Source: Paludisphaera rhizosphaerae (GTDB lineage: Bacteria; Planctomycetota; Planctomycetia; Isosphaerales; Isosphaeraceae). Taken from it: a stretch of 64,000 bases of DNA. Position numbers and translations under genes: made by a program. The notes beneath the pieces were generated by a model. It worked only from the letters and a program-made list of their open reading frames with translations, did no database searches and had not been told where the DNA came from. Positions 8,325 to 27,528 of the stretch are shown piece by piece. The DNA lies in assembly GCF_011065895.1 (NCBI RefSeq), contig NZ_JAALCR010000024.1, positions 1 through 64,000 on the forward strand. Reading direction: 5' to 3'. Position 1 is the stretch's first letter. Each line of letters opens with the position of its first letter.

Positions 8325-8484
8325 CGCGACCACGCCTCCCTCGCCCTCGAATCCATGCGACGGAATCGGATTAGGCGACAACAGTCGATTCCTGTCAACG
8401 CAAACCGACTGGGTGCACAAAATGAAGTTCAGGCAAAGTTTATGCTTTGGGCTTATCATCAGCGTGTGCTAGATTGACCGTGCG

Positions 8485-9897
8485 ATGGATGCTCCGCTGT
8501 CTCCTGCTCGAACATCGTCGACCTCGGACCTGCCGGCCGCCGACGTCGACCTGAGTGCACACCGCCAGGGGCCGGCCCCATGCTCTCTCGCGCGCCGGGT
8601 CGTGGCGCAAGGATTCATGGCGGCCGGCCTGGTGGTCACAGCGATCTCCGCCCGAGCGGACCTGCCCTATGATCGTGAGCCCATCAACTACCTGAGCGCT
8701 CAGGCTCACGATCCCGTCGCCGAACTCAAGACGCTCGTCGAATCGAAGAAGGTCGTTCTTGAGAAGGAAGGACCGCAAGGCTACCTTCGCGCGGTGCTCA
8801 AGGCCCTGGACGTCCCCGTTTCGTCGCAGGTTCTGGTCTTCTCCAAGACCAGCTTTCAACCGTCGCGGATCTCGCCCAAAACGCCCCGGGCGATCTACTT
8901 CAATGACGACGTCTACGTCGGCTACGTCCAGCACGGCGAGGCGATCGAGTTCTCGGCGTCGGACCCGCAACTCGGCGGCGTTTTCTACACGCTGACCGAC
9001 GCTGAGGAAGGCGCCGAACCTGCGATCGAGCGCCGAACGCACGACTGCCTGTTGTGCCACCTCTCCGGCAGGACCGAGGAAGTGCCAGGCCATCAGGTCC
9101 GGTCGATGAAGACCGAGCCTTCCGGCCGCCCGGTCTTCAGCGCGGGCAGCTTTGCCAGCACCCACGACAGCCCGCTCGGCGAGCGCTGGGGAGGCTGGTA
9201 CGTCACCGGCAAGCTCAGCGGTCAGGCCCACATGGGGAACCTTCTGACTCGCGGGGACGAGGCCGACGTCCGCAAGAATGCGAAGGCGGCCTCGGACGTG
9301 CTCGACCTCTCCAGTCGGCTGGATCTGAAGCCCTACCTCTCCCCGCACAGCGACGTCGTCGCACTCCTGGTGCTGGAACATCAGGTGAAGATGCACAACC
9401 TGCTCACGGTCGCCAACTATCAGGGGAAGCTGGCGCTGCAGTATGCGAAGGATATGAACAGGGCCTTCGGCGAGCCCGAGGGAACGATCTCCGAAGGGAC
9501 GGCCCGACGCTTCGACGGCCCCGCCGAGGCGATCGTGCGGTACATGCTCTTCACCGAGGAGGCCCCGTTGTCGGGCGCCATCGAGGGGACCTCCACCTTC
9601 GCCGCCGACTTCACAAGTCGCGGCCCTCGCGATGATCGAGGCCGTTCGCTGCGGGACTTCGACCTGAACACTCGCATGTTCAAATACCCGTGCAGCTATC
9701 TGATCTACTCCAAGGCGTTCGACGCCCTCCCCACGCCGATCAAGGATCGAACTTACCGACGACTCTGGGAGGTGCTCACCGGTCGCGACCGCTCGAAAGC
9801 CTTCGCGCGACGGACGGCTGAGGAGCGCCGGGCGATCCTCGAGATCCTCCTGGCGACCAAACCGGGACTCCCTGATTACTGGCGCGAGCCAGGCTGA
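8485..9897 (+). CDS. Exported mono-heme cytochrome c family protein
   Basis: A single heme-attachment motif, CLLCH, sits at residues 188-192 of 470. The N-terminus has a non-canonical head and then LARRVVAQGFMAAGLVVTAISARA, which looks like a signal peptide with cleavage after ARA; a start later than ATG 8485 is therefore possible. The rest is mostly helical and does not resemble a small cytochrome; the family is a large single-heme protein seen in planctomycetes, function unknown. It lies 129 bases upstream of the heme- and copper-containing fusion protein in the same direction, so the two may form an electron-transfer pair in the periplasm. Confidence 0.65.
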   Translation: MDAPLSPARTSSTSDLPAADVDLSAHRQGPAPCSLARRVVAQGFMAAGLVVTAISARADLPYDREPINYLSAQAHDPVAELKTLVESKKVVLEKEGPQGYLRAVLKALDVPVSSQVLVFSKTSFQPSRISPKTPRAIYFNDDVYVGYVQHGEAIEFSASDPQLGGVFYTLTDAEEGAEPAIERRTHDCLLCHLSGRTEEVPGHQVRSMKTEPSGRPVFSAGSFASTHDSPLGERWGGWYVTGKLSGQAHMGNLLTRGDEADVRKNAKAASDVLDLSSRLDLKPYLSPHSDVVALLVLEHQVKMHNLLTVANYQGKLALQYAKDMNRAFGEPEGTISEGTARRFDGPAEAIVRYMLFTEEAPLSGAIEGTSTFAADFTSRGPRDDRGRSLRDFDLNTRMFKYPCSYLIYSKAFDALPTPIKDRTYRRLWEVLTGRDRSKAFARRTAEERRAILEILLATKPGLPDYWREPG

Positions 9898-10026
9898 ACT
9901 CCTCAGTTCGTCGACTCGCGACGATTGCCGACCGGATAATCCCGCGATAACCTGTTGGGATCGGGACCAGCCACCGTCCCGAGGCGACGTCACGCCTCCA
10001 CCGCCCCGCCTTCCAGGGTCCAGCCC

Positions 10027-13000
10027 ATGCCGAAAACGACCTCGCCCGACCGCCGCTCGCGGACGCTCGTCTGGTGCCTGTTCCTCGGGATCGTCACGCT
10101 GCTTTCGGCAGACTTCATTCGCGCCCAGGTTCTCCATCGGGAGACGCAGACGGACGACGCGCCGAAGCCCACGCAGAACGCCGGCGTCTACGCACGCAAC
10201 AACCTCATCGCCTGGTGCATCGTCCCGTTCGACTCCAAGAAGCGGAGTCCTGAGGATCGCGCGGCGATGTTGGAACGGCTGGGCTTCAAGCATTTCGCCT
10301 ATGACTGGCGGGCCGAACACGTCCCGACGTTCGACGCCGAGGTCGAGGCCCTCAAGCGTCATGGCGTCGCGCTCGACGCCTTCTGGTGCCCCGGTGAACT
10401 GAACGACGACTCCCGGCGCATCCTGGACGTCCTCAAGCGCCACGGTGTGAAGGCCCAGCTTTGGGCGATGCTGGACCTCGGGGTCGATCGGGTCGCCGGC
10501 GAGGAGCAAGAGCGTCGCGTCTCGGCGGCCGCCGCCAAGCTGGCGCCATTGGCTCGTGCGGCCAACGAGATCGGCTGTTCGGTGGGGCTCTACTGTCACG
10601 GAGGGTGGTTCGGCGAGCCCGAGAATCAGGTGGCGATCATCGAACGCCTCAAGAAGGACGGCCTGACGAACGTAGGCATCGTCTACAACCTTCACCACGG
10701 GCATGACCAACTTGATCGTCTGAAGTCGCTTCTGCCTCTTATGAAGCCGCACCTGTTCACAATCAGCATTAACGGCATGGACACCGGCGGCGATCGCGTC
10801 GGTCGCAAGATCCTGCCTCTCGGACAGGGCGAGCGCGACGTGGAAGTCCTTCGCCTCATCCGCGACAGCGGGTACGCCGGCCCAATCGGCATTCTGGGCC
10901 ACACGCAGGACGACGCCGAGGATCGACTGCGCGACAACCTCGACGGTCTCGACTGGCTCGTCCCGCAACTCGACGGCGCCGCCCCTGGGCCGAAGCCGAA
11001 GCCTCGGACCGTCGTCCCGCCGCGCCCCGCTCCGTCGCCCGCCGCTGCGGCCGCGGGTCTTTCTGCGGTGCAGGCGTTGGAGGTTGCGTCGGCGCTCGAC
11101 TCGGCCCGCAAGACGGGCGACCCCACGCGAGGGGCCGTGGTCTTCACCGACGTTCGATTCACCTGCTTCTCCTGCCACAAGGTCGGCGATCAGGGCGGGA
11201 GCGTCGGTCCGGAACTGACTGCGTTGACGAAAGACGCCAGCCCCGAGGAGATCGCTGCGTCCGTCCTCTGGCCCAAGCTCAAGGTGAAGCAGGGCTACGA
11301 GGCGTTCGCCTACGGCCTGGAAGACGGCCGATTCGTCCAGGGATACAAGGTCGGCGAGACGGCCGACGCCCTCAAGATCCGCGACGCCGCGCTCGACAAG
11401 GTGGTCACCATCAAGAAGTCCGAGGTCGAGGAATCGAAGTCCGTCGGCACGCTCATGCCCGACGGGATCGCCGCGACGATGTCGCCCCGGGAACGCTCCG
11501 ACCTGCTGAGTTTCCTGCTGACCCTCGGCGCACCGGGAGCTTCGCCCCCCGCCTTGACGATCCCAAGCCACGACCACACGGCGGCGACCTTCGAGTACGA
11601 CACCAAGCCGCTTCAGCCCGAGTACTACACGAACGCCGGCGACTTCGTGAACCGAAATCGGCTCTTCGACTTCTACGCAAAGGAGGCCGACCACTTCCGC
11701 AAGATGCCGAATCCGCCTGGACTCTTGCCGGTGTACAAGGGCCTCGACGGCGGCAAGTCGGGCCACTGGGGCAACCAGAACGAGAGCACCTGGGCCGATG
11801 GCCGCTGGAACGAGTCCGACATGGGCTCGGTGCTCGGCGGCGTCTTTCGGGGTGACGGCGTGACCATCCCCAAGGCCGTCTGCCTCCGCCTCGGCGACAA
11901 GGGCGAGCTTTCCGCGTGCTTCAATCCCGAGACGCTCCGCTATGAGGCTCTCTGGTCGGGCGGATTCGTGAAGGTGTCCAGCGTTCGGCACGGCTTCATG
12001 GAAGGGCTGATGCTCGACGGTAAGCCGCTCCCGAAGCCTGAAGGCGCCTCGCCCTCGAATCCGTTCGTCTACAAGGGCTATTTCCGCCACGGCAAACGGG
12101 TGATCTTCTCGTATGCGATCGACGGCGAGGACTGGCTGGACGCCCCATGGGTCGACGACTCCGGTCGGTTCGTCTGCGAGGCCGGCCCCGCCGCGACGCA
12201 TCGCCTTCGCGAACTTACGAAGGGAGGCGGCGGCCGGCGATGGCCCGAGGCTCTCACCACCAAGGGTCGGCGCGGCACCTCGAAGCCGTTCGCGATCGAC
12301 ACGATCGAGCCCCCCTTCCAGAACCCCTGGAAGTCGCTGATGTTCTTCGGCGGCCTCGATTTTCTCCCGGACGGCACCGCCTTCCTGTGCACGATGGAGG
12401 GAGACGTCTGGCGCGTCGAGGGGATTGACGACGAGCTTTCCAAAGTCGTCTGGCGTCGATACGCCTCTGGCCTGCACCAGGCGCTGGGGCTCGTGATCGC
12501 CGAGGGGAAGGTGTACGTCATCGGTCGCGACCAGATCACCGAGTTGCAGGACCTCGACGGCGACGGCGAGGCCGACTTCCATCGCTGCATCAACAACGCC
12601 TACCTCACCTCGCCCGCCGGCCACGACTTCGTCTGCGGGCTTCAACGAGACGCCGCCGGCAACTTCTACACGGCCTCCGGGCCGGAAGGCGTCCTCCGCA
12701 TTCCGGCCGACGGCGGTCGCCCTGAAGTGCTCGCCACCGGGTTTCGAAATCCGGATGGGATCGGGCTGACGAAGGCGGGAGTCCTGACGGTCCCGCAGTC
12801 GGAGGGCGAGTGGGTCCCCACGTCCCAGGTCTGCGAGATCAAACCGGGCTCTCACTACGGTTACAAGGGCCCGAGGAACGGCGAGGTCCCCGCCCTGCCT
12901 CTGGTTTATCTGCCGCGCGGGATCGACAACTCCAGCTCCGAACAGGTCGAGGTGACGAGCGACCGCTGGGGGCCGTTCCAGGGGGATCAGGTTCACCTCT

Positions 13001-14058
13001 CGTTCGGGGCCGGCGGCGCGTTCCTGCTGCTTCGCGACGAGGTCGACGGCCAGGCGCAGGGGGCCGTCGTACCAATCCCCGGCGATTACCTTTCGGGCAT
13101 CCATCGGGGACGATTCAACCCCCGCGACGGCCAGTTGTACGTCGTCGGCCAGGCCGGCTGGGGGACGTACACCTCGCTCGACGGCTGCTTCCAGCGGCTC
13201 CGCTACACGGGCGATCCGATCCAGGTTCCTCGTTCGATCCACGCGGTCGAGAACGGCGTCGTGCTGAAGTTCAACCTGCCGATCGACTCGACCGCGCTGG
13301 CTCAGCCGGGCTCGTGCTTCGCCCAGGTCTGGAACTACCGTTACAGCCCGAATTACGGATCGAAGGAGTATTCGACCCGCCACCCTGGCACGCCCGGCCA
13401 CGACGTTCTGCCGATCCGATCGGCCCACATTGTCGAGGACGGCAAAACGCTCTTCCTGGAGATGCCCGAACTGCAACCGGTGGACACACTCCACATGCGA
13501 CTGGATATCGGCGGTGGAGCCCCGCAGGAGATGTTCGCCACGATCCACAAGCTGGCGCCGCCCTTCACGTCGTTCGAGGGCTACCGACCAGAACCGAAGA
13601 CGATCGCGGCGCATCCACGACTGGCCGACATGGCTGCGCTGAACGTCAAGCGTCCGGCGAATCCGTGGGCCGCCAAGATCGACAAGGCTCGGACCGTCGA
13701 TATCTCCGCGGGCAAGAACCTGACCTTCACGAAACCGGCGATCAAGGTGAAGGCCGGCGAGATCATCCGACTCAGGTTCATGAACCCTGACGTCGTCCCG
13801 CACAACTGGGTGCTGCTCAAACCCGGCACGCTGGCGAAGGTCGGTGACCTCGTCAACAAGGTCATCTCCGAGCCCGATGCCGCCATCCGGAGCTACATCC
13901 CCAAAACCGACGACATCCTGTTCTACATCGACGTCGTCGAGCCGACCTACGAGGCCTCGATCTACTTCAAAGTCCCCGATACCCTGGGTCGGTATCCTTA
14001 CCTCTGCAGCTTCCCCGGCCACTGGATGGTCATGAACGGCGTGATGACCGTTGAGTGA
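10027..14058 (+). CDS. Multidomain fusion: TIM barrel - cytochrome c - beta-propeller dehydrogenase-like - cupredoxin (1343 aa)
   Basis: A membrane or signal segment (LVWCLFLGIVTLLSADFIRA) starts the chain. Residues about 50-315 resemble the xylose isomerase-like TIM barrel (AFWCPGELNDDS, GLYCHGGWFGEPENQ, YNLHHGHDQ). After a Pro-rich linker comes a PVC-type heme domain with CFSCH at 380-384. A region I cannot name (about 520-750) precedes a sugar dehydrogenase-like beta-propeller (about 760-1070; GLDFLPDGTAFLCTMEGDVWRV, ITELQDLDGDGEADF). The C-terminus is a cupredoxin: His1259 (PHNW), Cys1327, His1332 and Met1336, the azurin spacing C-x4-H-x3-M. It probably acts outside the cytoplasm as a self-contained oxidoreductase passing electrons through heme and copper. 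Domain names are from motif recognition; the substrate is unknown. Confidence 0.75.
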   Translation: MPKTTSPDRRSRTLVWCLFLGIVTLLSADFIRAQVLHRETQTDDAPKPTQNAGVYARNNLIAWCIVPFDSKKRSPEDRAAMLERLGFKHFAYDWRAEHVPTFDAEVEALKRHGVALDAFWCPGELNDDSRRILDVLKRHGVKAQLWAMLDLGVDRVAGEEQERRVSAAAAKLAPLARAANEIGCSVGLYCHGGWFGEPENQVAIIERLKKDGLTNVGIVYNLHHGHDQLDRLKSLLPLMKPHLFTISINGMDTGGDRVGRKILPLGQGERDVEVLRLIRDSGYAGPIGILGHTQDDAEDRLRDNLDGLDWLVPQLDGAAPGPKPKPRTVVPPRPAPSPAAAAAGLSAVQALEVASALDSARKTGDPTRGAVVFTDVRFTCFSCHKVGDQGGSVGPELTALTKDASPEEIAASVLWPKLKVKQGYEAFAYGLEDGRFVQGYKVGETADALKIRDAALDKVVTIKKSEVEESKSVGTLMPDGIAATMSPRERSDLLSFLLTLGAPGASPPALTIPSHDHTAATFEYDTKPLQPEYYTNAGDFVNRNRLFDFYAKEADHFRKMPNPPGLLPVYKGLDGGKSGHWGNQNESTWADGRWNESDMGSVLGGVFRGDGVTIPKAVCLRLGDKGELSACFNPETLRYEALWSGGFVKVSSVRHGFMEGLMLDGKPLPKPEGASPSNPFVYKGYFRHGKRVIFSYAIDGEDWLDAPWVDDSGRFVCEAGPAATHRLRELTKGGGGRRWPEALTTKGRRGTSKPFAIDTIEPPFQNPWKSLMFFGGLDFLPDGTAFLCTMEGDVWRVEGIDDELSKVVWRRYASGLHQALGLVIAEGKVYVIGRDQITELQDLDGDGEADFHRCINNAYLTSPAGHDFVCGLQRDAAGNFYTASGPEGVLRIPADGGRPEVLATGFRNPDGIGLTKAGVLTVPQSEGEWVPTSQVCEIKPGSHYGYKGPRNGEVPALPLVYLPRGIDNSSSEQVEVTSDRWGPFQGDQVHLSFGAGGAFLLLRDEVDGQAQGAVVPIPGDYLSGIHRGRFNPRDGQLYVVGQAGWGTYTSLDGCFQRLRYTGDPIQVPRSIHAVENGVVLKFNLPIDSTALAQPGSCFAQVWNYRYSPNYGSKEYSTRHPGTPGHDVLPIRSAHIVEDGKTLFLEMPELQPVDTLHMRLDIGGGAPQEMFATIHKLAPPFTSFEGYRPEPKTIAAHPRLADMAALNVKRPANPWAAKIDKARTVDISAGKNLTFTKPAIKVKAGEIIRLRFMNPDVVPHNWVLLKPGTLAKVGDLVNKVISEPDAAIRSYIPKTDDILFYIDVVEPTYEASIYFKVPDTLGRYPYLCSFPGHWMVMNGVMTVE

Positions 14059-14511
14059 CGAGGCCGTTGGCTTCGAATTGGGTTGGTTCGCCGGCGTGAG
14101 GGAACCCGTACTGTCGTCGCAACTCTTTTCCGAGAGGCTGATTGCAGCGCCGCTGCGGCTTCGGGAATTGGGTTCCTTTGGCCGATTTTCGGACGCCCTC
14201 CGCAGAGTACAACCAGCCCGCTTCGGACGCCATTTTCGAGTTGAGAGTTGAATTCGAGTGTGGTGGCCACGCTTGCGTGACCTTGGCACCCTGCGCTGTC
14301 TCTCTTCGGTGGTGTTCAGTGAGGAATGTCGGATTTCGCGCATCGCGACGCGACCCTCAATAGACACTCGGACGTACCCAGGCCGCGCGAACGACCGTCG
14401 GCGGAGTTGCGCCTCCTATCGATATCTGGGGCTCGGGATGCCGTGCTTGCGCGCGAATCCGCAGGGGAATCGGCGGATTGAGGATCGCGTCATAGCGATT
14501 CGGGGGGTCGC
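14059..14511. other. Intergenic region between convergent genes, no gene seen
   Basis: The 453 bases separate two convergent genes. Short frames exist on both strands but lack ribosome binding sites and family features. I see no strong terminator hairpin or repeat. Confidence 0.4.
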
Positions 14512-15417
14512 TCAGTAGGCTTCGCCGTCGAGGATTTCGCCGTCGAAGCGGTGGGCGAGGGCGCGGAGGACCGAACGGTCGATCCGCGCCTTGAGGAAGT
14601 GGACGGAGCCGTCGCCGAAGAGGAAATTCGCACCGTTGTTGTGCTGAGATGCAAATCCGCCGACGAGGTCCGAGGAAAGCTCGCCGTTGTCGATCATCGA
14701 CTGGAGGACGACCGGGTCGAAGCGGTCGCCCCGAGAAAGTCCTCCCGGCCCTGGGCTCTTCCTCAGCGCGACGTCCGGCGCGTGTTCGTCGTTGACGCCC
14801 CAACCGGCGTTGCGGAGGGTGGCCGTGGTCCCCATGGCCCACGTGCCGAAGGTCATCGAGTAGCGCGTTTCGCCCAGCAGAATCGTCGACGCAGGGCCGT
14901 CGACAAGGTCGCGTCGGGCGATTCGACTGTTGAGGAAGAAAACGCCGTGGTCGTCCACGTCGATCGGCTTCTCCACGTCGTTGTGGCACCCCGCGTAGTT
15001 CGCCCCGCTGGAGATCGCGCTGGACGGGCAGAGGAAGGTGTTGATCCGCATCTTGGTCGCCGTGGTGTTGCCGTCGGCGTAGACGCCCAGAGTGAAGTTG
15101 ATGTTGTGATAAATGTTCTTCTGCTCCATGAACGGCAGGAGCTGCGCCGCCCAGCCGAAGCGGTAGCCGACCGGGTTGGCGTCGATCGGTCCCTGGAAGT
15201 CGACGACGCCCGGGGGATACACCCGGTGCGCTGATGCATAGTTCTCGAGAGCCACGCCCAGTTGATACAGGTTGTTGGTGCACTGGACCCGTCGCGCGAC
15301 CTCGCGCGACGACTGCACGGCGGGCAGCAGCAACGCGATCAGGACGCTGATGATGCAGACCACCACCATGAGTTCCACCAGCGTGAACGCCTTGCGGGGC
15401 TCAGTACGCAGCGTCAT
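14512..15417 (-). CDS. DUF1559 prepilin-like protein (301 aa)
   Basis: The N-terminus has the type IV prepilin signal RKA|FTLVELMVVV with Glu at +5 and a hydrophobic helix (IISVLIALLLPAV), for cleavage by prepilin peptidase. The C-terminal H-X9-DG region (HNNGANFLFGDGSVHFL) and the central GCHNDVEKPIDVDDHG motif define the DUF1559 family, a planctomycete-expanded group of pilin-like secreted proteins. Its ATG at 15417 overlaps the previous gene's 3' end by 17 bases, so the two are probably coupled. It is the last of three DUF1559 genes in the operon and most likely a GspG-like major pseudopilin or cargo of the neighbouring GspE/GspF machine. Confidence 0.85.
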   Translation of the reverse strand: MTLRTEPRKAFTLVELMVVVCIISVLIALLLPAVQSSREVARRVQCTNNLYQLGVALENYASAHRVYPPGVVDFQGPIDANPVGYRFGWAAQLLPFMEQKNIYHNINFTLGVYADGNTTATKMRINTFLCPSSAISSGANYAGCHNDVEKPIDVDDHGVFFLNSRIARRDLVDGPASTILLGETRYSMTFGTWAMGTTATLRNAGWGVNDEHAPDVALRKSPGPGGLSRGDRFDPVVLQSMIDNGELSSDLVGGFASQHNNGANFLFGDGSVHFLKARIDRSVLRALAHRFDGEILDGEAY

Positions 15418-16354
15418 CGATCTCCTCCCCGTCGTTCCGATTCCCCAGCCGGCGGTAAACGCTCTGCTCGATCGACGCTCGGATGAACCTCACCGACCCG
15501 TCCCCAAACGCGAAGATCGCTCCATTCCCCAGATGTCGACTCCCGAACCCGCCGACATAACCCGGGGGGATTGAGACCGTCCCCGCCTTCAGTAACGACT
15601 CCAGGGCCTCGGGCGTCTGCGCCGATGATTGCCACGCCGTCGATCGAGCCAACTCGCCAAGAGCCTCCACCTCCACACCGTTGATCGCAGCCCCCGTGTT
15701 TCGCAGCGAGGTCCGGCCGCTCGCCAGGAAGCAGGAGGCGGTCGGGGCGGCGACCTCGCCGACGAAGAACGTCTGCGAGAGGCCGTCGGCGACGTCCGCC
15801 ATTCGGACCCGGCTGTTGAGGAAGAAGACGCCGTGGTCGTCCACGTCGATCGTCTTCTCCACATCGTTGTGGCAGCCGACGTAGCTCGTCAGACCGGGCA
15901 GCGGGATCGAACGCGGCGTGAGCGGCTGCCCGAGGAAGTAGGCATAGGCAGGGTCGTCCCTCGGGTAGGAGTCCGGACAGGCCAGAGCGCTGATCCTGCA
16001 ATTGGCCGCCGTCATGTTAGCGGCGTGCTCCACGGTCACTTCGAAGTTCAGCGTCTGGTAGATGCCGTACTGTTCCATGAAGGGAAGGAGCGAGCCGATC
16101 CAATCGATCCGATGGCCAGCCGTCCCCTCCGTCAACGGATGCGTCGAGGCGACCGCTCCGGGGGGGAGAACCGAATGCGTCTCGTAATAGCTGTTGAGCG
16201 CCAGGTGGATCTGCTTCAGGTTGTTCATGCACTGGATCCGTCGAGCCGCCTCGTTGCCGGCGTGGAAGGCCGACAGCATCAGCGAGAGGATCACGGCGAT
16301 GATCCCCAGCACGACGATCATCTCAATCAGGGTGAAACCCGACCGGCGTCTCAT
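15401..16354 (-). CDS. DUF1559 prepilin-like protein (317 aa)
   Basis: The start at ATG 16354 gives MRRRSG|FTLIEMIVVLGIIA, a typical prepilin cleavage site with Glu at +5. The frame continues upstream to 16504 only because it crosses the neighbouring gene. The protein shares the motif GCHNDVEKTIDVDDHG and then VFFLNSR almost exactly with the gene at 14512, indicating tandem duplication. It ends with the H-X9-DG segment (HLGNGAIFAFGDGSVRFI). Cys residues are more numerous than in its neighbours. It is expected to be processed and assembled or displayed outside the inner membrane. Confidence 0.85.
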   Translation of the reverse strand: MRRRSGFTLIEMIVVLGIIAVILSLMLSAFHAGNEAARRIQCMNNLKQIHLALNSYYETHSVLPPGAVASTHPLTEGTAGHRIDWIGSLLPFMEQYGIYQTLNFEVTVEHAANMTAANCRISALACPDSYPRDDPAYAYFLGQPLTPRSIPLPGLTSYVGCHNDVEKTIDVDDHGVFFLNSRVRMADVADGLSQTFFVGEVAAPTASCFLASGRTSLRNTGAAINGVEVEALGELARSTAWQSSAQTPEALESLLKAGTVSIPPGYVGGFGSRHLGNGAIFAFGDGSVRFIRASIEQSVYRRLGNRNDGEEIDDAAY

Positions 16355-16383
16355 GGAACGCTTCTCCTGCCGAATTCGCCCGG

Positions 16384-17301
16384 TCAGTAAGAGTCGGCGC
16401 TGAGCATCTCGCCGTCGGCGCGATTGGCCAGGCACCGGTAGACCTCGTGCTGGATGGACGACTTGATGAACCGCACGGCGCCGTCGCCGAAGAGGAAGTT
16501 GCAACCTCCGGGATGGGCGCTGGAGAAACCGCCGACGAACTTCATCGCGGCATCTCCCGTCGCGTTCTGGGCCATGAACGTTCCTGGATCGATCGGGCCC
16601 GTCGTGGTCCAGATCTGCTGAGTGGACGCGGCGTTGGGAAACGTCCCCATGTTGCGAAGGCTCGCCCGAGTGCCCGAGGCCCAGCCCAGGTCGATGCCGT
16701 CGTTTCGCTTCTCGCCGACGAACAGGGTCTGGCTCGTGCCGTCGGGGACTTCCTCATAGCGGATCAGGCTATTGAGGAACAGGACGCCGTTGTTGTCGGC
16801 CGCGATCGGAGCCTCGACGTCGTGATGGACGCCCGCGTAGTTCGTCGCCGGAATCCCCTGAGCGTTCCGCCACTTGAGGGTGTTGTCCGACGGGCAGAGA
16901 AACGACTGAACCAGCTTGCTGCGCGTCGTTCCGTTCGTGGCGTCGTAGACGGAGACGTTCAGGTTGAAGTGATTGTAGATATTCTTCATTTCCATGTACG
17001 GCGTCAGCCTCGTCAGCCAGTTGAAGCCGTACCCCTTGGGCTGGTCGAGCACAGGTCCCTTGCCGTCGTCGACGACGCCGGGGGGAAGCGTCTCATAGGA
17101 ACCCTCGTAGTTGTGCAAGGCCAGGCCCAACTGCATCAGGTTGTTGACGCAGGTGACTCGACGAGCGGCCTCGCGGGCGGCCTGCACGGCCGGCAGCAAC
17201 AGAGCCACCAGCACAGCAATGATGGCGATGACGACCAGCAGCTCGATCAGCGTAAACGCCGATCGCGGTGGGCCGGGTGAATGAAAAGGTCGTTCTCTCA
17301 T
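16384..17301 (-). CDS. DUF1559 prepilin-like protein (305 aa)
   Basis: The prepilin signal [19 protein letters not shown] is canonical for this family, followed by [17 protein letters not shown]. The middle has a divergent form of the subfamily motif (GVHHDVEAPIAADNNG), lacking the Cys of the two downstream paralogues. The H-X9-DG region reads HPGGCNFLFGDGAVRFI. The gene begins 30 bases after the GspK-like gene and precedes the next DUF1559 gene by 29 bases. It is probably the ancestral copy, since it is nearest the DUF1559 consensus. It is likely a major pseudopilin or surface protein of this system. Confidence 0.85.
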   Translation of the reverse strand: MRERPFHSPGPPRSAFTLIELLVVIAIIAVLVALLLPAVQAAREAARRVTCVNNLMQLGLALHNYEGSYETLPPGVVDDGKGPVLDQPKGYGFNWLTRLTPYMEMKNIYNHFNLNVSVYDATNGTTRSKLVQSFLCPSDNTLKWRNAQGIPATNYAGVHHDVEAPIAADNNGVLFLNSLIRYEEVPDGTSQTLFVGEKRNDGIDLGWASGTRASLRNMGTFPNAASTQQIWTTTGPIDPGTFMAQNATGDAAMKFVGGFSSAHPGGCNFLFGDGAVRFIKSSIQHEVYRCLANRADGEMLSADSY

Positions 17302-22651: not shown

Positions 22652-23869
22652 TCAGTCGGGGATGGGCAGGTCGCCGCCCATGCCCAGGACGCGGCGGACC
22701 TCGGCCGGCGAGGTGCTCCCCTGCTCCACGGCCTCGCGAGCGCGGACCCAGCGCGTGGTCATCCCGGCGGCGACGGCCAATTCTTCCATGCGACGGACGT
22801 CGGCCCGTTCGAGCACGGCGCGACCCAGATCGTCGTCGAGCGGCGGCAGCATTTCGGCCAGGACGAGTCGCCCGCTGTAGCCGGTCCCCTTGCAGGCCGC
22901 GCAGCCGACCGGAGCACGAGCGGAGCGGACAGGGAGGCCGAGGAATTCGGCCCGGTCGCCGATCGGCTTCGAGCACTCGGCGCAGAGTCGGCGGGCCAGC
23001 CGAAGAGCGACGACCGCGCGGAGGCCGCTGCGGATGGCGTAGGGTTCAATCCCCATGTCCAGCAGTCGACCGACGACCTCGCAGGCGCTGCCGGCGTGAA
23101 ACGTCGTCAGGGTGAGGTGGCCCGTGAGTGCGGCTTGAAGGGTGGTCTCAGCGGTCGCGCGGTCGCGAATCTCACCGACGGCCAGAACCTCCGGATCCTG
23201 CCTGAGCAGGGCTCTAAGTCCGACATCGAGGGTGAGACCGGCCGCCGCGTCGACCTGCGATTGGGAGACGCCGTCGATCGCCGATTCGATGGGGTCCTCA
23301 AGGGTCGCCAGGCTCCGCCGTCCTTCCGAGCGGCGGGCGATCTCTCGAAGGCAGGCGTAGATCGTGGTCGTCTTGCCACTCCCCGCCGGCCCGGCCAGAA
23401 CGATCGCGCCGGAGGTTTCGTCGAGGAGACGCGACAGGTTGTCGCGAATCTCGTCGGGCAGCCCCAGATCTGCGAGGCCGAGGAAACGACCCGGACCGGC
23501 GAAGATCCGGACAACGGCCTTCTCGCCATGCAGGGTCGGGAAGGTCGAGAGCCGCATCTCCACTCGACCCGGCAGGCGACGAATCCGCCCCTCCTGAGGG
23601 ACGTCCGTCCGGTAGGTCAGCAACTCTGCGAGCACCTTCAGCCGTGCGACGACGTTCGGCGCTCCTTGACGCGGAAGCGTCGCGACGGCTTGCAGAACGC
23701 CATCGACACGCCAACGGACATCCAGCCCATTTTCGATGGGTTGGACGTGGACGTCGCTCGCTCCCGCCGCAACGGCCGCGGCGAGGAGCGCGTCGACGAC
23801 CTCTGGAGCGTACTGGGGATTCCCTGGGTTCAACGCCTTCAGGCGGTCGGCGACCGACGTCTCGTCCAT
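22652..23869 (-). CDS. GspE/PilB-type secretion ATPase (405 aa)
   Basis: This hexameric ATPase powers pseudopilus assembly at the cytoplasmic face of the membrane. Visible motifs are Walker A GPAGSGKTT (residues 160-168), the Asp box near LATLEDPIE, Walker B LRQDPEVLAVGEIRD and the His box LTLTTFHAG. A zinc-binding C-x2-C...C-x2-C segment (LCAECSKPIG, GCAACKGTGYSGR) is also present. The protein begins almost directly with the N2 domain (DALLAAAVAAGASDVHVQP) and lacks the N1 domain that normally binds GspL or PilM-type partners. At 405 residues it is therefore short. Its ATG lies six bases after the zinc-ribbon gene. Confidence 0.9.
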   Translation of the reverse strand: MDETSVADRLKALNPGNPQYAPEVVDALLAAAVAAGASDVHVQPIENGLDVRWRVDGVLQAVATLPRQGAPNVVARLKVLAELLTYRTDVPQEGRIRRLPGRVEMRLSTFPTLHGEKAVVRIFAGPGRFLGLADLGLPDEIRDNLSRLLDETSGAIVLAGPAGSGKTTTIYACLREIARRSEGRRSLATLEDPIESAIDGVSQSQVDAAAGLTLDVGLRALLRQDPEVLAVGEIRDRATAETTLQAALTGHLTLTTFHAGSACEVVGRLLDMGIEPYAIRSGLRAVVALRLARRLCAECSKPIGDRAEFLGLPVRSARAPVGCAACKGTGYSGRLVLAEMLPPLDDDLGRAVLERADVRRMEELAVAAGMTTRWVRAREAVEQGSTSPAEVRRVLGMGGDLPIPD

Positions 23870-24060: not shown

Positions 24061-27000
24061 TCACTTGCCGAGGACCGGACGAGCCTTCGCCGGCGAGCCC
24101 TCGACGTCCTCGAGAACGCATCGGAAGCCGTCAGGACGGCGCCCCGGCTCGAACGCCACGTAGAAAGCGTGGACGCCCGCGCCCAGGTCGACGGTAAAGG
24201 CGTCCGCGTTCTTGGGATCGGGTTCGATGCGACGGCCTTCGACCCAGACCGCCAGATCGCGACCCGAGTCGAACTTCAAGCGCACCGCGCCGGGAGTCGT
24301 CACCTCAACTTCGGAGCGAAGCAACGAGATCGGCGGAGCCCCGCCGACGCGAGGGACGGCGGGGAGTTCGCGAGGCAGCACGCGACCGGCGACCGTGGTG
24401 TAATACCGCTTCCAGGGCATCGACTCCTGGCCGTGGATCACCGCCTCGACGCTGGTCCGAATCATCGCCGTGGCCGACTCCTTGGTCGACATCAGGGACT
24501 GCCAGCGACGCAGAACGCGCTCCTTGCTGACGGCGTAGTCGCCGATCTTGCCCAGTTCCGAGAGGAACCGGACCATGTCGACCAGCTCGCCGCGCGTCAG
24601 AGGTTCGACGAGGCCCGCCGGCATGATCGAGCCGGCGACCTTCTGTTCCTCGATCGAAGCGAGCGGAATGGAGACCTCGTTGTCTTCCGAGTCGCGGAGG
24701 ACGAGGTCCTTGTCCGTCTGCCGAACGCGAATACCGGTCAGGATTCGACCGTCCTCGGTGGCCACAGCCGTCGAGTGGAAGTTCTCCTTCACAGCCTTGT
24801 TCGGCTCCAGGACGGAGTCGAGCAGGTAATCCGCCGGGGCGCTCGCGCCGATGCTCTCCAGGCTGGGGCCGACCTGCCCACCAGCACCGGCGACAGCGTG
24901 GCACTTCAGGCAGGTCATCTCGTCGCGACGGAAGACGGCCTCGCCCCGGGCCGGATCGCCCTTGGCCAATTCAGCAAGGATCGCCGTCTTCTCGGCCGCG
25001 GAGTAGGTTCGGTTGGTCTCGCCGAGTGAGCCGGCCTTCGCGAGGGCGTCGACCAGTTCCTGCGCCGGACGACCGCTGGCGCGGATGTCGCGGACGGCGA
25101 GCTTGGCGAGGTCCGGATCGACTTTCACGGCGGCCAGCGCTTTCGCGAGGGCAGCCGGTCCGTCTCGACGTGCGACGAAGGCCGCCAGGACGGACTGTGC
25201 TTCGTTGAAGCGAGCCGCGTTCAGCTCGGCCAGCCAATGAGCGGTCCGCTCAGCGACAGCCGCCGGCCCGTTCGCGGCAAGGGCGGCGAGGGCCAGCGAC
25301 TGGCCGACTGGATCGCCAGAAGCCGCCGCAAGTTTGTCGACGGCTGCCGACGCCTCGGGATCGCCGAATGCGAGCAGACCTCGGATCGCCTCCAACCGCA
25401 CCGGTGCGGGAACGTCGATCGCCGTCGCGGCTTCGGCAATTCGAGGCTTGAGCGCGGCGACCTTCCAAGCACCGGCCGCGGCCACGGCCGCCGCCCGCAA
25501 GGAAGCGTCGGAGTCGTCAAGGAGCCCACCGATTCGCGCGAGGTCTCCCGAGGGGATCACCTTGCGATCGCGGGCGGCCCGGACAAGCGTCTCCAGAAGC
25601 GCTGCGCGACGCGGGGTCGGCATCCCTTCTTTCTTCTCGACCACATCGAGCATCGTCCCGAGTTCGTTCGGCCCGCCGAGAGTCGCGATCAGGTTGAGCG
25701 CCGCGGCATCCTGTTCGTGAGGGATTCGGCCTTCGTTGTAGAGCTTGAGCAAGGGCTGCAAGACGGCCGCGGAGCCGAGGGCCTGGAGTGCGAACGTGAG
25801 ATTCTTCGCGTCGCCGAGTGCGTCGAGCTTCCCGGCCTCGACGGCGGGGAGCCAGGACGGGGCCAGGTCGCGGGCGGCCAGCCAGAGGGCGTAGTCGAGG
25901 AAAGCGTCCATCGGCTTGCCCAACGCACGGAAGGCCGTCGCAGCGGCCTTGCCGCTCGGCATGGCGGCCAGGGAACGCACCGCCTCCAGCCGCACGCGCG
26001 GGTTGTCGTCGAGGACGAGCGTGTCGAGCCACGAATCCGAGCCCGGAATCCTCCCCTGCCAGAGCGGGACGATCCGCGCCCCGGCCGCTCGCACGCGGAA
26101 ATCCTTCGAGGCCAGCGCCTGCTTGAGGAGGTCCGGGTTGGGTACGTCGAGACCCTGGTACATCCAGAGCCCCTCAAGTCGGTTGCGCTCGAACTCGGGA
26201 TCTTTGGGATCGAGGGCGGCGACCCAGGTCTTGAGCGCCGGGATCACCTCGTCCGCACCGCGTTCCTTGAGAACGCGCTTGGCCTGACGCCGCGTGTACT
26301 GCTCCGGAGCCTTGAGGGCTTCGAGAAGCGCTGGAACCTCGGCGCCGACCAGCTTGGGGCGTTCGACGAGCGGGCGATTCTTGGCCGTCACACGCCAGAT
26401 GCGGCCGCGAGTGTGGTCGCGGCGCGGGTCGCGGAAGTCGACCTCGCCGTGCTGGATGATCGGGTTGTACCAGTCCGCGATGTAGATCGCCCCGTCGGGC
26501 CCCATCAGGACGTCGATCGGGCGGAAGGAAACGTGCTTCGTCTTGATGAGTTCGGACTGCTCGCGCGACGAATACCCCGCGCCGTCGTCGCTGACGACGA
26601 ACCGACAGACGCGGTTGCCCCGGAAGTCGTTCGTCAGCAGGCTGCCGCGCCAGGACTTGGGGAGATGCCGGCCGTCGGCGACCTCCAGGCCGCAATACTT
26701 CGGGCTACCCGGATTGAGCCCCTTGAGCAGCCTGACGGCATCGACGGCCGTCACGTAATAGGCTCCCGGAAGGCAGTAGTTAATCCCCTCGCCCCCGGCC
26801 CCGTCGGTCGCGAACGACTGACCCCAGGCGTCGGTCTGATGTCCCCAGGGATTGACGAGGCCACGGATGAAGACGTCCAGCCCCATCGTCTCGGGACGGA
26901 ACCGCCAGATCCCGCCGCCATTGAGGCGACGGACGCCGTTTGGGGTCTCGATGTGGCTGTGGATGTAGATCGACTGATTGAAATACATCATCCCGTCGTG

Positions 27001-27528
27001 ACCCCACCGCAGCGTATGAAGCAGGTGGTGGGTGTCCTCCGTGCCGAAGCCCGAGAGGACGACGCGGGTGGAGTCGGCCTTGCCGTCGCCGTCAGTGTCT
27101 TTCAGGTGGAGCAATTCCGTGCTGTTGGCGACATACACGCCACCGTCGCCGGGCTCGACGCCCGTGGGGATCAGCAAACCGTCGGCGAAGACGGTCGTCT
27201 TCTCGGCCTTGCCGTCGCCGTCCTTGTCTTCCAGGATCAGGATCTTGTCATTGGCCTGCTGGCCGGGGGCGATCTGAGGATAGACCTCGGAGCTGGCGAT
27301 CCAGAGGCGGCCCTGGGGGTCGAAGTTCATCTGGATCGGCTTGGCGATCAGGGGGTCGGCGGCGAAGAGGTTTACCTCGAAGCCATCGGCCATGATGAAC
27401 GACTGACGCTCGACCTCAGGGTCGGGATCGGGCAGAGGCCCAACGGCGTTCTGGGCGCGGGCGGTTGCGGCGAGGGAAAGAACGAACAGCGCCGCGGCGA
27501 GGCGTCGGCGACGGGAGGTCTGATTCAT
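24061..27528 (-). CDS. PVC-type membrane-bound dehydrogenase with HEAT repeats and cytochrome c domain (1155 aa)
   Basis: A signal peptide (LAAALFVLSLAATARAQ) leads to a beta-propeller of the glucose/sorbosone dehydrogenase type (about residues 40-390). It is recognisable by FEVNLFAADPLIAKPIQMNFDP, DKDGDGKAEKTTVF, HTLRWGHDGMMYF and GPDGAIYIADWYNPIIQHGE. HEAT-like helical repeats follow (about 400-810). A PVC heme domain has CLKCH at residues 873-877, with ILTGIRVRQTDKDLVLRD and LTRGELVDMVRFLSELGKI. A C-terminal beta domain of about 130 residues ends the chain. Such proteins are numerous in planctomycetes and are thought to oxidise sugars or alcohols in the periplasm, though substrates are unproven. 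Its start overlaps the upstream SGNH gene stop (ATGA). Confidence 0.85.
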   Translation of the reverse strand: MNQTSRRRRLAAALFVLSLAATARAQNAVGPLPDPDPEVERQSFIMADGFEVNLFAADPLIAKPIQMNFDPQGRLWIASSEVYPQIAPGQQANDKILILEDKDGDGKAEKTTVFADGLLIPTGVEPGDGGVYVANSTELLHLKDTDGDGKADSTRVVLSGFGTEDTHHLLHTLRWGHDGMMYFNQSIYIHSHIETPNGVRRLNGGGIWRFRPETMGLDVFIRGLVNPWGHQTDAWGQSFATDGAGGEGINYCLPGAYYVTAVDAVRLLKGLNPGSPKYCGLEVADGRHLPKSWRGSLLTNDFRGNRVCRFVVSDDGAGYSSREQSELIKTKHVSFRPIDVLMGPDGAIYIADWYNPIIQHGEVDFRDPRRDHTRGRIWRVTAKNRPLVERPKLVGAEVPALLEALKAPEQYTRRQAKRVLKERGADEVIPALKTWVAALDPKDPEFERNRLEGLWMYQGLDVPNPDLLKQALASKDFRVRAAGARIVPLWQGRIPGSDSWLDTLVLDDNPRVRLEAVRSLAAMPSGKAAATAFRALGKPMDAFLDYALWLAARDLAPSWLPAVEAGKLDALGDAKNLTFALQALGSAAVLQPLLKLYNEGRIPHEQDAAALNLIATLGGPNELGTMLDVVEKKEGMPTPRRAALLETLVRAARDRKVIPSGDLARIGGLLDDSDASLRAAAVAAAGAWKVAALKPRIAEAATAIDVPAPVRLEAIRGLLAFGDPEASAAVDKLAAASGDPVGQSLALAALAANGPAAVAERTAHWLAELNAARFNEAQSVLAAFVARRDGPAALAKALAAVKVDPDLAKLAVRDIRASGRPAQELVDALAKAGSLGETNRTYSAAEKTAILAELAKGDPARGEAVFRRDEMTCLKCHAVAGAGGQVGPSLESIGASAPADYLLDSVLEPNKAVKENFHSTAVATEDGRILTGIRVRQTDKDLVLRDSEDNEVSIPLASIEEQKVAGSIMPAGLVEPLTRGELVDMVRFLSELGKIGDYAVSKERVLRRWQSLMSTKESATAMIRTSVEAVIHGQESMPWKRYYTTVAGRVLPRELPAVPRVGGAPPISLLRSEVEVTTPGAVRLKFDSGRDLAVWVEGRRIEPDPKNADAFTVDLGAGVHAFYVAFEPGRRPDGFRCVLEDVEGSPAKARPVLGK

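Follow-up and report, generated by a model that had tools for sequence, protein, structure and literature searches.

The window analysed here, a stretch of 64,000 nucleotides from Paludisphaera rhizosphaerae, contains a gene for a 1343-residue protein that can be translated without a break from an ATG at position 10027 to a stop codon at 14056-14058, in an open frame that extends upstream to a TTG at 9955. A sequence-only reading of this DNA had placed four domains in this single frame, namely a TIM barrel, a cytochrome c-type heme domain, a beta-propeller and a blue-copper domain, and translation, Pfam, NCBIfam and AlphaFold models confirmed the arrangement (Table 1). Structure prediction had been proposed as a check, and the confident models support all four domains, with a mean pLDDT of 92.1 for the barrel and heme domain together. 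The same reading took the protein to be exported, which is likely because the N-terminus is hydrophobic; a hydrophobic 14-mer precedes the first domain in 66 of the 70 relatives tested, as judged on stop-to-stop frames that may include untranslated residues, two further relatives being too short. The frames downstream of the gene are of the DUF1559 and pilin types.

Table 1. Features of the gene for the 1343-residue protein and of its upstream neighbour (positions in the window).
Feature	Position	Strand	Basis
Upstream gene, 470 aa, one CxxCH; possible redox partner	8485..9897	+	No Pfam match
Whole coding sequence, 1343 aa and stop	10027..14058	+	Translation without internal stop
Probable Sec signal peptide (aa 1-33)	10027..10125	+	Basic N-terminus, then hydrophobic stretch; putative cleavage site
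Xylose-isomerase-like TIM barrel (aa 50-318), metal ligands replaced	10174..10980	+	AP_endonuc_2, AlphaFold, Foldseek
c-type heme domain with beta insert (aa 364-498)	11116..11520	+	TIGR02603 above cut-off
CxxCH, C380-F-S-C383-H384	11164-11178	+	Sequence
Probable axial Met477	11455-11457	+	Alignment conservation
DUF6797 (aa 630-704), inside beta-strand-rich region aa ~602-721	11914..12138	+	Pfam, model strands
Beta-propeller (aa ~752-1064), NHL- and PQQ-sugar-dehydrogenase-like fold	12280..13218	+	VIA-align
H866-D867 in propeller	12622-12627	+	Sequence, invariance
R907-N908 in propeller	12745-12750	+	Sequence, invariance
Beta domain between propeller and cupredoxin (aa ~1068-1173), highly conserved	13228..13545	+	Model strands, conserved residues
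Auracyanin-like cupredoxin (aa 1220-1343)	13684..14055	+	Pfam Copper-bind, structure match
Predicted copper ligand H1259	13801-13803	+	Sequence, alignment to auracyanin A
Predicted copper ligand C1327	14005-14007	+	Sequence, alignment to auracyanin A
Predicted copper ligand H1332	14020-14022	+	Sequence, alignment to auracyanin A
Predicted copper ligand M1336	14032-14034	+	Sequence, alignment to auracyanin A

The genus is represented by five further genomes, four of which have full-length matches with 68-76% identity, the match being split over two frames in the fifth (G031); this search scored the best 14 candidates per genome, and another genome search scored four. Relatives were taken as the best-scoring 80 of 290, a choice that favours complete ones, with the window's own copy (L001) outside the 80. 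The domain-architecture search that the sequence-only reading had suggested recovered barrel, heme domain, propeller and copper domain in one frame in 54 of these 80. The barrel is absent from the frame in 20, including a cut sequence (L099) that is nevertheless labelled as barrel-bearing in our tree; the heme domain is missing in five, all from Verrucomicrobia, which keep the copper domain and have no CxxCH; and the remaining one (L095) is cut and was left out of the Pfam counts (79/80 scanned) and of the tree (79 loci and the window). The core alignment A1 comprises 76 rows, excluding L075, L095, L097, L098 and L099; alignment A3 holds 39 of these rows and alignment A4 holds 30 of 36 barrel rows. 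Some relatives encode the barrel in a gene of its own, which lies in an adjacent frame in G031, L071, L101 and L106, and a lectin-like domain has been added in others, Laminin_G_3 being matched in 21 of the 23 relatives that have a stretch of 208-259 residues between the barrel and the next domain (the lectin labels in the tree derive from insert size, which Pfam confirmed in these 21). Across family genomes, the barrel occurs in 30 of 31 with the core, the exception being G009, versus 6 of 14 without it, in counts uncorrected for kinship, and 36 of 45 have a single barrel. Two of the six cases of a barrel without the core are contig-end fragments in genomes that are 77% and 68% complete. Five stretches around stand-alone barrel genes, compared by eye, revealed no common context, with a crude gene picker that kept the barrel frame in three of the five.

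In the barrel, the AP_endonuc_2 model scores 30.9 bits at residues 83-306, just under its cut-off of 31.1; the same model reaches 35.7 bits, above the cut-off, in a near relative (L038), and 54 of the 59 relatives that have a barrel match it at E 0.001. The top Foldseek match is YcjR (6wn6; E 4.2e-9, 18% identity), which VIA-align places among many tied barrels (Z 19.9 versus 20.9). The Glu-Asp-His-Glu positions of 3wqo, which we take to be the metal ligands of this fold, lie opposite Tyr189, Asn221, Asn249 (or Ser247) and Leu290 (alignment E 1e-4), and the usual ligands are found in none of the relatives aligned. A canonical isomerase can be rejected on this ground, so the earlier description as a sugar-isomerase-like barrel holds for the TIM-barrel fold and is doubtful for the substrate chemistry. 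A pocket of invariant Tyr, Asn and His residues is nonetheless kept.

The heme domain matches TIGR02603 with 74.6 bits against a cut-off of 68.15, and scores far below cut-off with TIGR02604, the model for PVC-type heme-binding CxxCH proteins (16.9 versus 122.2 bits). The CxxCH motif is invariant wherever the domain is present (74/74 relatives), and the probable axial Met477 is conserved in 73 of the 76 rows of A1, the exceptions being the heme-less L087, L092 (a Brevifollis form) and L102. Its counterpart in alignments is the C-terminal heme domain of Kustd1711, a protein with bound calcium in which the His/Met hemes have potentials near +350 mV (PMC11791136).

DUF6797, which the sequence-only reading overlooked, scores 50 bits against a cut-off of 24.9 and is present in all 79 relatives scanned; the protein described here is the only one with this domain found in the genome at E 0.001. 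The propeller that follows superimposes by VIA-align on the NHL domain of PknD (1rwl; Z 20.4 over 244 residues) and on the PQQ sugar dehydrogenases 2ism (Z 19.2, 275 residues) and 3a9g (Z 19.1, 289 residues), NHL and designed propellers scoring slightly higher (Z ~20) over fewer residues. His866, Asp867, Arg907 and Asn908 are each invariant in 80/80 relatives. When compared with four proteins of the same genome that score above the GSDH cut-off, Arg907 lies opposite Arg in all four, Asn908 opposite Asn in three and His866 opposite His in two, the His being one residue off in L121 and absent in L124; in sGDH, the His and Arg-Asn positions belong to the active site. GSDH itself gave no Pfam match in the 1343-residue protein at E 0.1 and none among the 79 relatives at E 0.001, and when the propeller was compared by hhalign, using a shallow profile, with each of two GSDH proteins, the probabilities were <1. 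PqqE is below cut-off in this genome, and scavenging of PQQ is possible. The link between the propeller and PQQ dehydrogenases is weak. Between the propeller and the cupredoxin lies a further beta domain that had also escaped the sequence-only reading.

The C-terminal domain matches Copper-bind (residues 1224-1343) with 32.2 bits against a cut-off of 21.2, and 70 of 79 relatives match this model at E 0.001, a few being cut. Rechecking of the letters bore out the C1327-x4-H1332-x3-M1336 motif with an upstream H1259 and its numbering. The modelled domain superimposes on auracyanin A (2aan) with Z 18.6 and an rmsd of 1.5 Å over 118 aligned residues at 29% identity, and sequence alignment pairs the four residues with the His, Cys, His and Met ligands of auracyanin A, which together argue for the predicted copper site. 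'Azurin-type' is a loose label: membership of the azurin family (TIGR02695) can be rejected, at 30.3 bits against an equivalog cut-off of 105.1, and the domain is auracyanin-like. The predicted ligands are invariant (78/78 to 79/79 relatives) and the domain is present in all uncut relatives, a constancy that applies within this family only, among relatives chosen by score; a DUF6797-Laminin_G-propeller protein of the same genus (L128) has no Copper-bind match.

The 470-residue gene, not remarked on previously, ends 129 bp upstream of the main gene, and its product could be assigned to no family. At 7 further loci out of 117, a homologue immediately precedes the main gene; these loci seemingly represent 5 genomes, L010/L038 and L014/L051 being apparent duplicates; CxxCH is present in 7/7 upstream-gene sequences inspected, the window's own included and the cut L018 excluded. 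Most relative loci have only ~1.5 kb of flank for such neighbour counts. An amidohydrolase-type frame lies upstream in 8/80 loci, and the one scanned (L102) matches PF01979. Of the 80 loci, 21 are flanked by members of clusters that hold DUF1501 proteins and 18 by members of those that hold PSCyt/PSD1 proteins (two members of each cluster were checked with Pfam), and both kinds lie downstream on the same strand in L042, L045, L046 and L047. DUF1501 genes (PF07394) number at least 24 in 20 of 21 genomes searched, lower bounds obtained with ~54 candidates scored per genome, and are so common that chance alone would yield 4 to 14 neighbours of this kind; the overall excess of DUF1501/PSCyt neighbours is modest.

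Our best explanation, to which we give a probability of about 0.4, is that this is an exported, dehydrogenase-like propeller protein of PVC bacteria with copper as the main electron port and heme as an optional one. Catalysis would most likely reside in the propeller, which is distantly like the soluble PQQ sugar dehydrogenases and would act on a group resembling a sugar or an alcohol, oxidising it. The type 1 copper domain would serve as the exit for electrons, joined, where it is present, by the His/Met heme domain, which is probably of high potential; carriers in the periplasm, for example the mono-heme protein encoded upstream, would receive them. With its usual metal site gone, the barrel may bind the substrate or process the product. 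Sequence, domains, predicted folds, ligand invariance and the modular gains and losses are established, whereas we infer export, catalysis, the substrate class and the electron path; on this reading a compound resembling a sugar may supply the protein with electrons outside the cell membrane.

A tentative alternative, to which we lean less, is that the protein is a non-catalytic element of electron wiring or docking, in which an NHL-type propeller offers a platform to which a polysaccharide or a partner enzyme binds, and the heme and copper domains only relay electrons between an outside partner and the respiratory chain. The highest propeller Z-scores, from PknD and designed propellers, and the lack of a GSDH match fit this alternative, and the PSCyt1-PSCyt2-PSD1 and DUF1501 proteins could exemplify such partners: in L047 their genes follow the main gene on the same strand after gaps of 38 and then 6 bp, and the flanking clusters in other loci point the same way. 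However, the invariance of His866, Arg907 and Asn908, partly common to GSDH-type proteins, suggests an active centre, the number of DUF1501 neighbours must be set against that expected by chance, and the window has other kinds of frame downstream.

It is improbable that the protein is a 3-keto-sugar machine, in which the propeller, heme and copper domains perform the C3 oxidation of a glycoside and leave epimerisation or elimination of the 3-keto product to the barrel, in the way that YcjR and its relatives work with soluble partners. YcjR, the top Foldseek match, is a 3-keto-glucoside epimerase, and enzymes are reported to act on C3-oxidised glycosides by beta-elimination (PMC10628242). Against this, YcjR is only one of the tied barrels, and a metal mechanism is not available to a barrel whose four ligands have been replaced.

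A copper enzyme resembling nitrous oxide reductase, built from the propeller and the C-terminal cupredoxin, is very improbable. Nitrous oxide reductases make up most of the 50 matches listed for the core model, but with a TMq of 0.11-0.16 and an rmsd of 24-31 Å, reflecting loose chaining of two domains. CuZ requires seven His, whereas His866 and His990 are the only invariant His residues of the propeller (39 rows of A3), and the copper site is H-C-H-M rather than CuA; we therefore reject this likeness. An assembly or frameshift artefact joining separate genes, towards which the separate adjacent barrel frames might point, is ruled out since the 54 relatives with the same fusion come from other assemblies.

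Returning to the dehydrogenase-like reading, the five heme-less relatives weaken the necessity of the heme-copper relay that had been proposed, and an obligatory relay is unsupported because copper persists where heme has been lost. 'Unusual wiring' was half right, given that another protein encoded in this genome also has heme, propeller and cupredoxin in one chain, in a different order; the genome has 22 further matches to the heme domain, and such mosaics are common in PVC bacteria. The interpretation given in the sequence-only reading is partly supported. In its most ambitious form, which we regard as unlikely, our explanation would describe a new family for extracytoplasmic sugar oxidation, specific to PVC bacteria. 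Its members would be exported dehydrogenases built as one chain, whose barrel, a pseudo-isomerase lacking metal, would pass a carbohydrate on to a propeller of a new quinoprotein type; copper would be the constant outlet and heme an optional second one. The parts would repeatedly have been fused or split apart, lost, or combined with lectins.

Heme mosaics whose function is not known are numerous in PVC genomes, as He et al. (2017; PMC5615132) state for PSCyt proteins. We found no study of the barrel-heme-propeller-blue-copper string in the literature. The protein recurs in a fixed domain order and its copper ligands do not vary; since some natural forms lack heme and others the barrel, comparison could test the need for each domain. 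Should the protein prove to be a dehydrogenase, it would reveal how carbohydrates outside the cytoplasm serve PVC bacteria as a source of electrons.

Each part of the protein has counterparts in known systems. The barrel shares its TIM-barrel fold with YcjR and other AP_endonuc_2 sugar isomerases and epimerases, from which it differs in having replaced metal ligands and in being fused and probably exported. The heme domain, with its beta insert, CxxCH and probable axial Met, is shared with the diheme cytochrome c Kustd1711 (7zs0), which has two heme domains and is encoded in an anammox nxr cluster, whereas a single heme domain is set within a mosaic here. The propeller has the fold of soluble PQQ sugar dehydrogenases of the GSDH family (2ism, 3a9g) and may share with them the Arg-Asn position and the His, which lines up in two of four comparisons, but differs from that family in its lack of a GSDH Pfam match. 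Auracyanins A and B of Chloroflexus (2aan, 1qhq) have the fold (Z 18.6 and 17.4) and four copper ligands in common with the cupredoxin, and are small proteins rather than the C-terminal domain of a 1343-residue chain. PSCyt1, PSCyt2 and PSD1 are absent from the Pfam matches of the protein at E 0.1, and the modular redox proteins of PVC bacteria (TIGR02603/TIGR02604 heme proteins; PSCyt/PSD) are likewise mosaics, in which a heme domain is joined to a propeller, a lectin or unknown domains, and compared with which the present family is set apart by its recurring order of barrel, heme domain, DUF6797, propeller and cupredoxin.

Translation of the main gene gave one uninterrupted frame, in which the motifs and residue numbers of the sequence-only reading proved correct. 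The N-terminus resembles a Sec signal peptide, and a hydrophobic stretch precedes the first domain in 66 of 70 relatives tested, as measured on stop-to-stop frames. The long open frame antisense to this gene and to the upstream 470-aa gene most probably just mirrors coding sequence rich in GC.

Features of the fusion protein, its window and two related proteins
Feature	Position	Details
Main gene	window 10027-14058 (+)	1343 residues
Xylose-isomerase-like barrel	aa 83-306	30.9 bits, a hair below the Pfam cut-off
TIGR02603 heme domain	aa 364-498	profile score above cut-off
DUF6797	aa 630-704	profile score above cut-off
Propeller, predicted model	aa ~752-1064	clear
Propeller, TIGR02604 profile	aa 816-887	weak, 16.9 bits vs 122.2
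Plastocyanin/azurin domain	aa 1224-1343	profile score above cut-off
Antisense open frame	window 8440-14367 (-)	1975 aa
Three adjoining frames	window 14512-17301 (-)	pilin-like N-termini; the one scanned has DUF1559 and an N-methylation motif
Type II/IV secretion ATPase frame	window 22652-23869 (-)	
DUF7133 propeller protein	window 24061-27528 (-)	1155 aa; HEAT repeats, weak cytochrome c matches, a match to the fusion protein's heme domain
Second own-genome mosaic	L127:616-5829 (G000:C19)	1737 aa, one frame; GDSL, DUF7133 propeller, HEAT, F5/8-type, cupredoxin, TIGR02603 heme
Same-genus paralogue	L128:176-3223 (G029)	DUF6797, Laminin_G_3, propeller

The host is a planctomycete, and the closest named relative among those found is Paludisphaera soli (Isosphaeraceae), with 75% identity in the best segment. 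Among 45 family genomes, the own one counted, 37 have matches at E 1e-50; as read from the match table, 31 of the 45 possess the core, which starts in the heme region or shortly behind it and runs through the cupredoxin. Across the phylum, with scoring limited to the top four candidates of each genome, 39 of 197 sampled genomes (own included) matched the core profile at E 1e-100; nine of these matches span heme to cupredoxin, those in G104 and G164 span propeller to cupredoxin, and the remainder cover the propeller and the following beta domain. In the own genome (8.05 Mb, 110 contigs), another 23 matches were found at E 1e-5, of which 22 concern the heme domain.

From 290 relatives confirmed by a contig scan, we analysed the best 80, a choice favouring complete ones. 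The four-part architecture first read from the sequence was found again in this search: 54 of the best 80 combine barrel, heme, core and cupredoxin within a single frame. The barrel is absent from the fusion frame in 20 (among them L099, which is cut), three of which (L071, L101 and L106) have a barrel frame directly upstream; five have barrel and cupredoxin without a heme domain, and one is cut ahead of the cupredoxin. The five heme-less relatives are verrucomicrobial by record title (the species of L092 belongs to Verrucomicrobiota) and contain no CxxCH anywhere in the frame. Pfam identified DUF6797 in 79/79 relatives scanned, Copper-bind in 70/79 and AP_endonuc_2 in 54 of 59 barrel-bearing relatives. 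Of the 23 relatives carrying a long insert behind the barrel, 21 matched Laminin_G_3 and 18 matched TIGR02603, the latter being the expected number. A tree of the 80 core sequences (a quick search with SH-aLRT support only) calls for at least 10 changes in barrel presence, 10 in the insert and one in heme. From these domain counts and repeated changes it follows that a DUF6797-propeller-copper core underlies an otherwise modular chain. Outside the family the core is sometimes incomplete, as in paralogue L128, where a Pfam scan gave no copper-domain match.

The barrel is clearly predicted to adopt the sugar-isomerase fold (mean pLDDT 92.1 for barrel plus heme). Foldseek placed YcjR, a 3-keto-D-glucoside 4-epimerase, first (E 4.2e-9, 18% identity), and VIA-align left many barrels tied. 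In an alignment with 3wqo (E 1e-4), the four metal ligands of the fold (Glu, Asp, His, Glu) are faced by Tyr189, Asn221, Asn249 (or Ser247, where most relatives have Asn) and Leu290. Among rows that have a residue at the position, Tyr189 is conserved in 60/60 and Asn221 in 63/63, and His191, Glu197, Asn200, His223, His224 and His226 are nearly invariant; judged by residues, the pocket looks rebuilt, not decayed. A search at E 1e-30 gave a single barrel per genome in 36 of the 45 family genomes, the two fragments in G021 being taken together. The barrel is present in 30 of 31 core-bearing versus 6 of 14 core-less genomes (Fisher p 1e-4, without correction for kinship). Several genomes encode it as a gene of its own, sometimes with a signal-like N-terminus. 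Such stand-alone genes were seen at L129, L132, L133, L134 and L135 and in G004 and G040; four genomes of one genus (G039-G042) have the barrel without the heme-copper core.

In the core model (mean pLDDT 89.1, pTM 0.80), VIA-align of the propeller ranked NHL and designed propellers highest (Z ~20, some 240 residues), followed by the PQQ-type dehydrogenases 2ism and 3a9g (Z ~19, 275-289 residues). H866, D867, R907 and N908 are invariant in 80/80 rows. Catalysis and PQQ binding in soluble glucose dehydrogenase involve a His and an Arg-Asn pair. Four own-genome proteins (L121-L124) exceed the cut-off of the PQQ sugar dehydrogenase family GSDH, and the propeller profile matched them at E 1e-13 to 6e-5, computed over 62 frames. 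R907 faces Arg in all four, N908 Asn in three and H866 His in two; the His of L121 is shifted by one residue and faces D867, and L124 has no His at the H866 position. Against a quinoprotein count the absence of a Pfam GSDH match from the fusion protein, the lack of signal in a profile comparison of the propeller with two GSDH proteins, and a PqqE score below cut-off in the own genome. We tentatively regard the fusion protein as an exported dehydrogenase-like enzyme, with a probability of about 40%; a non-catalytic protein with a wiring role is a slightly less probable alternative.

The 470-aa gene, with one CxxCH and no Pfam match, is encoded on the strand of the main gene, 129 bp upstream of it. 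Its homologues occupy the same position in seven other loci, apparently from five genomes, and CxxCH is present in 7/7 inspected sequences of its family, the window's own included. At L047, PSCyt1-PSCyt2-PSD1 and DUF1501 genes closely follow the main gene (gaps of 38 and 6 bp); because such genes are very common, their excess as neighbours is modest overall. In 8/80 loci of various lineages (L040, L055, L073, L079, L081, L098, L102, which was scanned, and L113), the fusion gene has an amidohydrolase-type frame upstream.

The sequence-only reading had called the wiring unusual. Given the 1737-aa mosaic in the same genome it is not quite unique, and its distinguishing feature is the DUF6797 core behind the apparently rebuilt barrel. 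As a mosaic the fusion protein is ordinary for these bacteria; it is unusual in its fixed order and barrel. The family is real and conserved, and we found no study of it in openly licensed literature; no description of the protein appeared by title or start of abstract among the papers listed under auracyanin, azurin or cupredoxin in planctomycetes, DUF6797/TIGR02603, multidomain redox proteins, 3-keto-glycosides, PSCyt1, or Isosphaeraceae dehydrogenases and cytochromes. An azurin survey excluded matches of >200 aa (PMC8779525), so the fusion protein would have escaped it.

Both redox domains resemble characterised proteins. There is strong evidence that ligands H1259, C1327, H1332 and M1336 converge in the predicted copper domain, since H1259 is invariant in 79/79 rows of the alignment of relatives and the other three in 78/78, auracyanins A and B are the best solved relatives (E 1e-11 and 2e-10), and the modelled domain, alike in fold, fits onto auracyanin A (Z 18.6, rmsd 1.5 A across 118 residues). 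In the heme domain, C380, C383 and H384 are invariant in 74/74 rows possessing it, and Met477 is present in 73/76 core rows, the exceptions being heme-less L087, L092 and L102. The C-terminal heme domain of Kustd1711 aligns with it, axial Met included. The hemes of Kustd1711 are described as His/Met-ligated, calcium-tuned and at ~+350 mV (PMC11791136); by homology, the heme of the fusion protein would likewise have a high potential.
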